Assembly (NCBI GenBank): GCA_018266295.1
Contig: JAFEAQ010000004.1
Location: 124,001-188,000 of the forward strand
Direction of reading: 5' to 3'
DNA from: Bdellovibrionales bacterium
Lineage (GTDB): Bacteria; Bdellovibrionota; Bdellovibrionia; Bdellovibrionales; Bdellovibrionaceae
DNA length: 64,000 nucleotides
In this document: positions 2,318 through 6,279 of the stretch, one piece after another
How positions within the stretch are numbered: position 1 is the first letter of the stretch
Layout of the letters: each line of letters starts with the position of its first letter
The notes under the pieces: model-generated
What the model was told of the DNA's origin: nothing
Databases searched by the model: none
The model's input: only the letters and a program-made list of their open reading frames with translations
Position numbers and translations under genes: made by a program

Positions 2318-2383
2318 TCATCTTACGGACGCGGATGTCTCGGAGGTATAATCAGTTTTTTTAGCTGGCATTTCATTACTCAT
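2318..2383 (-). CDS. Possible 21-residue small protein
   Basis: A very short frame, MSNEMPAKKTDYTSETSASVR, is preceded by a strong AAGGAG six bases before its ATG. It lies in the gap between two plus-strand genes. The peptide is polar, with no membrane segment. The good ribosome binding site is the only support; codon evidence is too short to judge. It could be a chance pattern. Confidence 0.3.
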   Translation of the reverse strand: MSNEMPAKKTDYTSETSASVR

Positions 2384-2462
2384 GATGACTCCTTGTGTTT
2401 TGACCCTTTACTTGAAATTACGCACGTTTCCTCACTAGAATGGCAAGCAAGGAAATAAAGCC

Positions 2463-2873
2463 ATGAATGTTAAAGACAGTGAATTCAAAGCCCTTTTGGA
2501 GAAATATAAAAAGTTTGCGGTTTATGGATTAAGTCCCGATGCCGGCAAAGCAAGTCACTATGTCCCTGAATATATGCGTGATCACGGTTGGGAGATGGTC
2601 GGCACCTATCCGAAAGCACACGATGCCGGAGGATTTAAGATCTACCCTTCTTTAAAAGAAGTACCGGCAGAGTATCGCAAATTCATTGATGTCTTTAGAA
2701 GTTCTGACCGTATTGATGAAGTTGTGGACGAGATTCTGGAAGTCGGCGGAGTTGAAGTGATGTGGCTACAACTGGGGATTTCAAATCCCGCGGCCGAGGC
2801 CCGCGCAGAAAAAGCCGGTATCAAAGTGGTTTCGAACCGCTGCCTGATCATTGAACATAAGAAATACTTCTAA
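2463..2873 (+). CDS. CoA-binding domain protein (YccU-like)
   Basis: A 136-residue protein made of one Rossmann-type CoA-binding domain. Visible parts are the first strand and loop FAVYGLSPDAGKASHYVPEY, the middle segment YPSLKEVPAEYRKFIDVFRS, and the late motif VMWLQLGISNPAAEARAEKAG followed by NRCLIIEH. These are typical of the CoA_binding_2 family (E. coli YccU). Members bind CoA or nucleotides; the biological role is unknown. A single-gene unit closed by a strong terminator hairpin directly downstream. Confidence 0.9.
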   Translation: MNVKDSEFKALLEKYKKFAVYGLSPDAGKASHYVPEYMRDHGWEMVGTYPKAHDAGGFKIYPSLKEVPAEYRKFIDVFRSSDRIDEVVDEILEVGGVEVMWLQLGISNPAAEARAEKAGIKVVSNRCLIIEHKKYF

Positions 2874-2879
2874 GGCATA

Positions 2880-2911
2880 AAAAAAGGAGAAGGTTTCCCT
2901 TCTCCTTTTTG
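2880..2911 (+). terminator. Rho-independent terminator
   Basis: The hairpin AAAAAGGAGAAGG-TTTC-CCTTCTCCTTTTT lies a few bases after the CoA-binding gene. The stem is flanked by A and T runs, so it can stop transcription from both strands and also serves the converging haem dioxygenase-like gene. Confidence 0.85.
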
Positions 2912-2931
2912 AATTAATCTATTTCTAGATC

Positions 2932-5010
2932 CTAGTCATGCCAAGGCTCGAAAGCTGTCGTCAAACCGGTCATCTTAGGTTTCAACTCAGGCATATGGCG
3001 TCCGATAACTTGAGCCATTGTTCCTTCATTATCGATCCAATCCATGCCCGTTTGCGTATAGTGAGCAGCATTGTAATCAGCCGTATAGAAACGATCTGCC
3101 ATCAAACGGCGTGATGCCATCAAGATAAAGATTTGGAAGAGAGTTTCACCGAAACCGAAGTCCTTAGGACGAACTTCTTCCGCCAAAGTACCCACGAGCA
3201 AGTCAATCATTTCAACGTTGTCGTTACCTACTGAATCACGACCGTAAACTTTGTAGAACTTGTCTACAACAGCAACCTGTCTTGCATCCAATGGTTTATT
3301 AGCCGGGAAGAAGTCTTTGTATGACTTGATTGGCTTTAAGCCGATCGCTCTTCTGAATTGATTGTAACGAGGCACACCTCTTTCACGATCTCTGATGATA
3401 TCAACCATACCCAAATCCATTTGGCCATGACCTGGAACAGTGAATTCTTGCATGAATTTCGGGAAGTTGTTCAAAACCAACTGACCTGGGTGCTGAGTGC
3501 CAAAAGAGTAGTACAAATCTTTCAAGCTATGAGTCGCCATGATGCCGTAACTCTTATCATTGCGAGTCTCAGCAAATGGAACGGACTCGATTTTGCCAGG
3601 TTGATTGACGGACTTAAAGTTTAGAGCCTCTGGTAACAATGAGTGCAAACGGTAAACAGACGTGAACTCTTCAGTGATTGAGAAAGGAACACCGGCGTTC
3701 CAAGTTTTATCACCAACAACGCCACCCACTAAGTAACCTTCTTTAAGTCCAGGGATGATGTCTGTTTTACCCAACCCAGGGATACGCTTAATGAGCTTTG
3801 ACCAAGTTTGCGGATTCGCCAAACCGTACCAGTTACCGTACATACCCGCACGCAATACCTTATTAGGCAAGATTGCAGGAGTCCATTCAACCGTATGAAT
3901 CTTCGCTAAAACCGCTGCGTTGATCAGACGAGCTGTTTGGAATACTTGTTCGTCGAGGCCTTTTTCATCAAGTACCTTAACTTCTTTGCCATTTCTCCAT
4001 GTAAACTTTTGAGTTTTTGGATCGTAAGTCACATTCTTCTTCATCAAAGTATCAGCAATCGCGTTGTGCTCTTTGACGAAAAGAGTGTGCAACATACTAA
4101 GACCGACCCACCAGTTGTCGCGGAAACCCGTCACTTCATAACCGTTGTTTTGTCTGTTATCAGCAGGGTTCAAACTATTGTTCTTAGGTAAGATCTCGTT
4201 ACCATTCACAGTTTCAGTACGCATTTTACCGCGCGAGAAACTTCTCAACACATTTTGCTCGTTCTGGTTATTACCGTAGATCTGAGAAGCATCCCACCAG
4301 TGAGTAGAATCATTGGCAGAAACTTTGTCATAACCTTCTTTATATTGAGAGCGAGGATTTGGATTGTCCTTCGTTCTATCGATCACGTGCTCAACGCCAT
4401 CTGGACCTTTGATTTTATACTGATTACCGACCATGTTAGGTCCGTGAGTCAACCAGTCATGATTCATGAACTGAATCCAAACACCCGCAAGCATGTTCAA
4501 GAAAGGAACTGGCTTGAATTCATCACGTGTGAAGAACTCTTTTGAAACCACTGCCGGGTTCGGAATCATCAACTTCTCTTGTGCTTTTTTATCGATAAAC
4601 TCAGGAGCGACGTTACGACCGAAAGCTACGCCAGCAGCACCGATATGGCCATCTGAAAGATCATTACAAGAACCATCAGCTTGTCTGAAGTTTGTATTTA
4701 CTTTCGAGCAATCAATCGGAGCGTAACCGAAGTAACCCACATGCGGATCATGGAGATTATTTTTAAAGAGATTGTCACGCATTTTCTTAAGGTCAAGTAA
4801 ACCTCTGAGCTCACCTTTTTCTGACCATGTCGTCCAAGGAGTTCCAGCCAATTCAGAGCTTGGTGCGCGGCGGGCTTCATCGCTTCCAGCAGGAATCGAA
4901 GTATCAAAAATGTATTGTGTTGTTGGTGTCGAAGGCCCGTGGGCACATGATGACAGCACCATACTTGCGCTGACAAGAACGGATACGATCATCCTCTGAT
5001 TCATATTCAT
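2932..5010 (-). CDS. Haem fatty-acid alpha-dioxygenase-like lipoprotein (animal haem peroxidase superfamily)
   Basis: A 692-residue exported haem enzyme. A signal peptide with lipobox LSSC (Cys22) predicts a lipoprotein. Conserved blocks match the alpha-dioxygenase/cyclooxygenase branch: distal His184 in QFMNHDWLTHG, WWDASQIYG near 238-246, WWVGLSMLHTLFVKEHNA near 300-317, and AAVLAKIHTVEWT near 365-377. The segment EEFTSVYRLHSLLPE carries the catalytic Tyr453 and proximal His456 in the Tyr-x-x-His spacing of cyclooxygenases (YHWH) and plant alpha-dioxygenases. The tail RRLMADRFYTADYN also fits alpha-dioxygenases. Family enzymes convert fatty acids to 2-hydroperoxides using O2. That this one does so is inference. 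It is divergent from a catalase-related gene that could process hydroperoxides. The ribosome binding site AAAGGAG is good. Confidence 0.8.
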   Translation of the reverse strand: MNMNQRMIVSVLVSASMVLSSCAHGPSTPTTQYIFDTSIPAGSDEARRAPSSELAGTPWTTWSEKGELRGLLDLKKMRDNLFKNNLHDPHVGYFGYAPIDCSKVNTNFRQADGSCNDLSDGHIGAAGVAFGRNVAPEFIDKKAQEKLMIPNPAVVSKEFFTRDEFKPVPFLNMLAGVWIQFMNHDWLTHGPNMVGNQYKIKGPDGVEHVIDRTKDNPNPRSQYKEGYDKVSANDSTHWWDASQIYGNNQNEQNVLRSFSRGKMRTETVNGNEILPKNNSLNPADNRQNNGYEVTGFRDNWWVGLSMLHTLFVKEHNAIADTLMKKNVTYDPKTQKFTWRNGKEVKVLDEKGLDEQVFQTARLINAAVLAKIHTVEWTPAILPNKVLRAGMYGNWYGLANPQTWSKLIKRIPGLGKTDIIPGLKEGYLVGGVVGDKTWNAGVPFSITEEFTSVYRLHSLLPEALNFKSVNQPGKIESVPFAETRNDKSYGIMATHSLKDLYYSFGTQHPGQLVLNNFPKFMQEFTVPGHGQMDLGMVDIIRDRERGVPRYNQFRRAIGLKPIKSYKDFFPANKPLDARQVAVVDKFYKVYGRDSVGNDNVEMIDLLVGTLAEEVRPKDFGFGETLFQIFILMASRRLMADRFYTADYNAAHYTQTGMDWIDNEGTMAQVIGRHMPELKPKMTGLTTAFEPWHD

Positions 5011-5280
5011 GCAAACTCCTTTTACATGCTTTATTTAAATTTTAAACAGTATGAATTTACGATAGGGTAGATGCTCCACAATCGCAAGACCATTGCTCCG
5101 ATCGTTGTCCCGTCTTCGGAGTGATCGCTCGAAACCTAGACCAAAGAACAGCGCTCAAATCACTACTACAATAACAAATTTCATGGTGCGTATTTGCACT
5201 GGACGTGCTTGAGCGAGCGAAAATATGTCTATGCAAACGCAGTTCAAGCATTGTTACAATAAAAGTGTTTCGGAGGATTA

Positions 5281-6279
5281 ATGAAAAAAAGGACAATCTC
5301 GTTTGGCGTGCTCATCATTGCACTCATTGCAACTTACTCAATTGTTGATCTCGTCATCGAACCACCTGCAACTCGTGAGCCTGCTTCTGTTCCGTCAAAC
5401 TACGAATCGATGAAAGCTTGCGAGAAGCAAGATGTCCTCTGGAGTAAAATCGAAGAAAGTGCTTACAAAGAATTACCTCCGAACCGCGAGTTCGGAATGT
5501 TTCAATTAATGGCGATGAGTAAGCAAGAAGTTGGCATTAAGGGAACAAACTACTCTGACTTCGCCCCTACAGGATGGAAGAAATATCTCCATGGCCGTGC
5601 GAGTATCGCTAAGGTAAAGCTGGTCCCCGTTGCCGGCACCAAATACACAGGTCTTCTTCAGAGCGGCGCTGAGTGCGGTCTTTTAAGAGTCTCTCTGACA
5701 TACAAACCGACCGGCAGCCGCCCGGTGGCCCCTGGCTTGGCGTTTAAGATTTTCCGTGATGGCAATCCTAGCACCAACATTTCCGCGTTGGTTTCGTTGG
5801 ATGGACAAGGCGAAGACTACAATTTCTTTAAATACCCATTATCTAACATTGTTCCGGTGGGTGATGGCTTCGGTCAGAAAATGGTTCACAAGATTTTCTT
5901 AACAGCGACAAAATATCCTGAGGAACTCGGTGCCCACGAATTCGGCGAGATGGACGTTCATGGGCAAAAAGTGGCGGAACCAGTGTCTCCTCGTCAATTA
6001 TTCTTTGTTCCGGGTCCCGGCTTAAGCTTCCCGTCTACACCGCATGAACTTCGTGAGGACTACGCGAAAATCCCTGCCGGAACGGTGATCTATCAGGTCT
6101 TCGCAGCTCCTGAGAAGTACAATTCCTTTAACTATCTGATGGAGTATCAGCCAGCGAATGCTCCGAACTTCTTAAAGGAGTCCGAGCATATTGCAGATAT
6201 CGTAACGACTTCGAGTTTCGTAGCTTCGCAATTCGGCGACGACGGCATCTTCTTCAGACACCAACTCAGACCTAAATAA
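5281..6279 (+). CDS. Catalase-related (haem-dependent catalase-like) membrane-anchored protein
   Basis: A 332-residue protein with an N-terminal membrane segment (residues 6-26), so it acts in the periplasm or at the membrane. The catalase-like core is visible as YLHGRASIAKVKLVP, where His104 aligns with the distal haem His. It continues with LLRVSLTYKPTG, PGLAFKIFRDGNPSTNI and SLDGQGEDYNFFKYPLSNIV, and ends in FFRHQLRPK. This matches the minimal catalase-related family rather than true catalases. A clear proximal Arg...Tyr signature was not found. Catalase-related proteins in corals and other organisms act on fatty-acid hydroperoxides. The divergent neighbour is an alpha-dioxygenase-like enzyme, so a shared substrate is plausible. 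GGAGG precedes the start. Confidence 0.6.
   Translation: MKKRTISFGVLIIALIATYSIVDLVIEPPATREPASVPSNYESMKACEKQDVLWSKIEESAYKELPPNREFGMFQLMAMSKQEVGIKGTNYSDFAPTGWKKYLHGRASIAKVKLVPVAGTKYTGLLQSGAECGLLRVSLTYKPTGSRPVAPGLAFKIFRDGNPSTNISALVSLDGQGEDYNFFKYPLSNIVPVGDGFGQKMVHKIFLTATKYPEELGAHEFGEMDVHGQKVAEPVSPRQLFFVPGPGLSFPSTPHELREDYAKIPAGTVIYQVFAAPEKYNSFNYLMEYQPANAPNFLKESEHIADIVTTSSFVASQFGDDGIFFRHQLRPK

Follow-up and report, generated by a model that had tools for sequence, protein, structure and literature searches.

Genomic locus and gene content

The analysed window is a stretch of 64,000 nucleotides from a Bdellovibrionales bacterium (assembly GCA_018266295.1, contig JAFEAQ010000004.1), and all positions below refer to it. 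The two divergent open reading frames named in a preliminary description of this DNA are both present, 270 bp apart, and encode an alpha-dioxygenase (DOX) and a short catalase-fold protein (CLP).

2932..5010, minus strand: DOX, alpha-dioxygenase, a lipoprotein of 692 aa (Pfam PF03098; 42% identity to rice alpha-DOX 4kvj)
5011..5280, no strand: intergenic region of 270 bp between the divergent DOX and CLP genes
5281..6279, plus strand: CLP, short catalase-fold protein of 332 aa with a hydrophobic helix at its N-terminus (sequence and model)

The genome (4.2 Mb) contains a single An_peroxidase gene and one ordinary catalase gene, the latter away from the DOX/CLP locus. Promoter and terminator scans at the locus gave scores near chance. 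Hemerythrin-domain and pyridoxamine-oxidase-like genes lie nearby at 904-1395 and 1783-2307, with no sign of linkage to DOX and CLP.

Family and catalytic residues of DOX

DOX matches Pfam An_peroxidase with E = 2e-100, and its best PDB sequence match is rice alpha-DOX (E = 5e-90), with the 42% identity extending over 548 aligned residues. Other alpha-DOX entries (4hhr) follow in the ranking, with lactoperoxidase (6e-17) and COX (2e-5) far behind. By its sequence, DOX is a plant-type alpha-dioxygenase, in agreement with the preliminary description, which had proposed an alpha-dioxygenase-like lipoprotein and whose Tyr453, His456, His184, KEHNA and ADRFYT blocks are all found as described. The functional positions of DOX are as follows.

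4945..4947, minus strand: Cys22 of the lipobox (LSSC), from sequence; a lipobox-like Cys occurs in most Bdellovibrionota DOX
4459..4461, minus strand: His184, equivalent to rice His157, distal haem His (PDB alignment; invariant in 18 DOX)
3895..3897, minus strand: His372, equivalent to rice His311, fatty-acid carboxylate binding (PDB alignment; role from PMC8720084)
3880..3882, minus strand: Thr377, equivalent to rice Thr316, positioning the alpha carbon (PDB alignment; role from PMC8720084)
3652..3654, minus strand: Tyr453, equivalent to rice Tyr379, radical Tyr (PDB alignment; role from PMC8720084; invariant in 18 DOX)
3643..3645, minus strand: His456, equivalent to rice His382, proximal haem ligand (PDB alignment; invariant in 18 DOX)
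3106..3108, minus strand: Arg635, equivalent to rice Arg559, carboxylate binding (PDB alignment; role from PMC8720084; invariant in 18 DOX)

The roles of Tyr379, His311, Thr316 and Arg559 in the rice enzyme are those given in PMC8720084. PDB entry 4kvl has Phe in the alignment column of Tyr453. His372 and Thr377 are nearly invariant among the 18 bacterial DOX sequences, the exception being a divergent DOX (genome G022) in which the HTVEWT motif is lost and whose genome is without CLP. Because of the N-terminal lipobox LSSC, DOX is likely an exported lipoprotein, and its family and residues suggest that it would make 2-hydroperoxy acids.

Catalase fold and C-terminal end of CLP

The profile searches suggested earlier for both proteins, which assign DOX to An_peroxidase, retrieve for CLP no sequence match in Pfam, NCBIfam or the PDB, and Pfam Catalase (PF00199) gives no match to it up to E = 1. 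A CLP profile found nothing relevant among PDB sequences and no link to the genome's own catalase or to one relative, while a profile of 26 catalase-related relatives produced only a short match, covering residues 113-165. Sequence profiles being inadequate to tie CLP to catalases, structure search was decisive instead. The AlphaFold2 model of CLP, built on an alignment of 43 homologs, has a pLDDT of 90.5 and a pTM of 0.88. Foldseek placed MAP2744c (E = 1.6e-4) and coral allene oxide synthase, cAOS (3.4e-3), as its top two matches, and VIA-align returned Z values of 9.7-10.7, the 50 chains among the matches listed all being catalase-fold proteins. As modelled, CLP has the catalase beta-barrel fold.

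The earlier label "catalase-related" is therefore right as to the fold of this neighbour, but the protein stops before the helix with the haem-ligand Tyr. In structural alignment, the last CLP residue pairs with residue 347 of human catalase, 404 of HPII and 335 of cAOS, 11 to 18 residues ahead of the axial tyrosines (Tyr358 in human catalase, Tyr415 in HPII and Tyr353 in cAOS). The cAOS haem pocket with axial Tyr353 is described in PMC5617202. The same C-terminal end occurs in 47 of 47 CLPs checked, all of which are without the proximal RxxxY helix and the axial Tyr, whereas full-length catalase-related relatives from the same phylum keep RxxxY (Tyr in 26/26, Arg in 25/26). Lacking the proximal Tyr of catalase and cAOS, CLP does not fit among the catalase-related enzymes of the allene oxide synthase or lyase type, with which the preliminary description had compared it.

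Three segments of CLP are of particular relevance to haem binding.

5581..5592, plus strand: K101-x-x-H104, in register with catalase R-V-V-H, which holds the distal His (alignment)
5686..5694, plus strand: R136-x-S138, in register with catalase R-F-S (alignment)
6259..6261, plus strand: C-terminal His327, candidate axial haem ligand (invariant in 43/43; ligand role inferred)

CLP PGLALK is likewise in register with catalase RGFAVK. No variation occurs in 43 sequences at residues H104, R136, S138, K156, R258, D320 or H327, and the distal K/R-x-x-H and R-x-S motifs are maintained in all of these down to about 30% identity. For the distal Asn of catalases (N137 in cAOS), sequence alone brought no invariant CLP Asn into register. 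His327 lies two or three residues past a conserved Phe, the one found ahead of the proximal loop in catalase, and more distant short relatives share the F-x-H pattern. Owing to this invariance, placement and recurrence, His327 is a candidate substitute for the axial haem ligand. The distal pocket argues for haem in CLP; the missing Tyr helix argues against it. Distant short catalase-like proteins likewise ending after an F-x-H motif were observed at four loci (L133, L134, L135 and L136).

Genomic linkage and natural fusion of DOX and CLP

CLP loci in named genomes number 77, of which 30 (L021-L049 and L052) are of the Bdellovibrionota type, that is, DOX-associated and non-fused. DOX is adjacent or a few kb away, within the flank examined, in 23 of these 30 loci, which bears out across Bdellovibrionota the synteny that the preliminary description had proposed to examine. 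The two genes are divergent or co-directional, at times with the gene of a third component, the lipoprotein LP, in between. Of the remaining seven loci, four belong to genomes with a DOX at another site, two are on short or truncated contigs, and for one no DOX was found.

DOX and CLP also occur as a single polypeptide of about 920 aa at about 20 loci from Alcanivorax, Oleispira, Teredinibacter and related bacteria. The fusion proteins have an N-terminus without evident signal peptide, and their hosts include the non-predatory Alcanivorax, which does not favour the action on prey lipids that the preliminary description had raised as a possibility. The AlphaFold2 model of the Alcanivorax fusion was poor (pLDDT 68.5, pTM 0.57). 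Two further Bdellovibrionota families (G038 and G263, the latter running off its contig) have DOX fused to a longer catalase-related domain. Fusions of DOX with this long type were seen at L017:166-3606, with RxxxY present, and at L132:2-2974, cut by the contig end.

Of 369 genomes from this phylum, 39 contain DOX, 35 of them together with CLP. A close CLP (E<1e-90) is present in 35/39 DOX genomes versus 3/330 others, and the corresponding table (35, 4, 3, 327) yields a Fisher p of 5e-41 with kinship ignored. In the CLP tree, a branch with values of 100/99 separates all DOX-associated CLPs from all DOX-less CLPs. The common pathway of DOX and CLP claimed in the preliminary description gains strong support from the natural fusions, and the two proteins, encoded side by side in predatory relatives of Bdellovibrio, very probably form a common fatty-acid-peroxide pathway.

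CLPs without any DOX exist in Legionella and others, so a catalase-like fold alone does not imply a DOX pathway; their gene context gave no functional clue. The Legionella CLPs (L076-L088, L090, L094, L096 and L097) form a separate clade, and DOX was found in 0 of 12 Legionella-type genomes searched. In another genome (G368; L185:3677-4813 and 2346-3917), the gene next after CLP encodes a full-length catalase-related lipoprotein, with DOX elsewhere, and the two catalase types can thus coexist. One DOX (G010) is split across two contigs (L016 and L019), and a decayed CLP with stops stands next to a partial LP in G087:C5; the module may be in the course of being lost in places.

A third component, the lipoprotein LP, and other recurrent neighbours

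LP is a lipoprotein family of 280-400 aa recurring beside DOX and CLP, with no Pfam match and, in a profile search, no relevant PDB sequence match. It is present in 37 of the 369 phylum genomes, 34 of which have DOX and the remaining three an intact or decayed CLP, and it accompanies DOX in 34 of the 39 DOX genomes. Examples are found at L031:5878-6909, L040:8943-10145 and L177:6366-7469, the last being the LP of the window genome, on another contig than DOX and CLP. In one genome (G004/L028), LP forms the N-terminal part of a fusion protein with DOX. The DOX-CLP module thereby includes a third protein, which co-occurs with it almost perfectly. Metallo-beta-lactamase-fold proteins of two kinds also recur near DOX, CLP and LP, less specifically (e.g. 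L037:5958-6890, L021:3538-4302).

Proposed mechanism and alternative explanations

The reading that we favour, with moderate confidence, is that exported DOX makes 2-hydroperoxy acids and that a dedicated, haem-binding CLP partner converts them. The exported haem enzyme would act through its Tyr453 radical on free fatty acids, giving 2-hydroperoxy acids, and CLP would be its dedicated partner with this product as substrate. CLP would retain the distal haem pocket (Lys101, His104, Arg136, Ser138) after losing the helix with the axial Tyr, and would probably hold haem by a different ligand, for which the invariant His327 is the likeliest choice. Its reaction may be cleavage of the hydroperoxide to an aldehyde one carbon shorter or reduction to a 2-hydroxy acid. 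By analogy with coral AOS-LOX, fungal DOX-P450 and the Nostoc 10S-DOX with its lyase, passage from DOX through the 2-hydroperoxy acid to CLP is the most likely route. A more specific version, in which the haem ligand has shifted from Tyr to the invariant C-terminal His, CLP is dedicated to alpha-hydroperoxides and the three proteins form an envelope module, is put forward tentatively, as a possibility with the balance somewhat against it.

CLP was also considered as an allene oxide synthase, and this candidate was rejected. Only unsaturated hydroperoxides can give allene oxides, so that a saturated 2-hydroperoxide is no suitable substrate, and CLP moreover lacks the Tyr.

The absence of the entire proximal helix and ligand Tyr from every CLP checked, set against the RxxxY kept by full-length relatives, would also suit a CLP free of haem, whose catalase barrel would serve as an accessory or binding subunit, keeping hold of the fatty acid, channelling the product or stabilising DOX. 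We regard this as unlikely, though worth serious attention, as the haem-facing distal K/R-x-x-H and R-x-S, invariant in 43 sequences, are hard to explain without haem. Considerably less probable is a protective CLP that destroys hydrogen peroxide or stray peroxides for the benefit of DOX or the envelope, leaving the DOX product untouched. The catalase fold is in keeping with such a role, and alpha-DOX enzymes are activated by peroxide; however, the catalase Tyr is absent, a normal catalase is already encoded in the genome, and fusion to one particular enzyme points to a channelled product. That DOX and CLP are mere neighbours without shared function could draw on the DOX-less CLP homologs of Legionella and others, but the natural fusions make it very unlikely, and adjacency, co-occurrence and the DOX-specific CLP clade speak against it too.

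A further alternative concerns purpose and is compatible with the mechanism favoured here: the module would supply the bacterium's own lipids with 2-hydroxy or odd-chain acids instead of serving for signals or damage to prey. 2-Hydroperoxy acids are known to be reduced or decarboxylated, and the fusions occur in non-predators, both of which fit this purpose, whereas DOX is likely exported and lipid synthesis is cytosolic. Taken together, own-lipid supply is possible but rather doubtful.

Comparison with known systems

Plant and cyanobacterial alpha-DOX enzymes (rice 4kvj, Arabidopsis alpha-DOX, CalDOX, LepDOX) share with the window DOX the family, the catalytic Tyr, both haem His, the carboxylate-binding His and Arg, and the Thr. 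The window DOX differs from them in being a predicted exported lipoprotein whose gene has a conserved partner. The available portions of PMC9305512 and PMC8720084 make no mention of a catalase-fold partner of alpha-DOX, and in the latter, N- and C-terminal extensions were trimmed for the alpha-DOX tree. For CLP, the best structural match is the 33-kDa catalase-related MAP2744c (3e4w, 3e4y), with a VIA Z of 10.7 and an rmsd of 4.2 over 196 residues; identity is about 11%, and the solved MAP2744c chain continues about 20 residues past the CLP end.

As far as the open-access literature searched extends, several features appear to be new: an alpha-DOX as the dioxygenase coupled to a catalase-fold partner, a short catalase-fold partner family without the proximal Tyr, natural alpha-DOX/catalase-fold fusions of two kinds, and a lipoprotein co-occurring with alpha-DOX and CLP. 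Bacterial alpha-dioxygenases would thereby gain a partner and a second step, and the fate of bacterial 2-hydroperoxy fatty acids becomes directly testable through one natural fusion protein. If CLP does bind haem without the Tyr, the definition of the catalase-fold haem site would change.

Coupling of a bacterial dioxygenase to a catalase-related partner is already known from Nostoc punctiforme, whose linoleate 10S-dioxygenase and catalase-related 10S-hydroperoxide lyase (Brash 2014, as cited in PMC13049297 and PMC9410191) are the closest known system to DOX and CLP. Here the coupling is seen as adjacency, fusion and co-occurrence. The Nostoc 10S-dioxygenase acts mid-chain on unsaturated acids, whereas the window DOX is of the type acting at the alpha carbon; the Nostoc partner is described there as a haem catalase, whereas CLP is without the Tyr helix; and the available parts of the two citing sources mention neither fusion nor a third lipoprotein for the Nostoc pair. 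The coral AOS-LOX and HPL-LOX fusions, as described in PMC5617202, likewise join a catalase-fold domain to a hydroperoxide-making enzyme, with lipoxygenase instead of alpha-DOX and a full haem pocket with Tyr353. In the fungal DOX-P450 fusions covered by PMC13049297, a COX-like dioxygenase is similarly fused to a hydroperoxide-converting domain, with P450 in place of the catalase fold. The DOX-CLP module would extend this recurring theme of a dioxygenase with a peroxide-converting haem domain, seen with coral LOX, fungal P450 and Nostoc, to alpha-oxidation.
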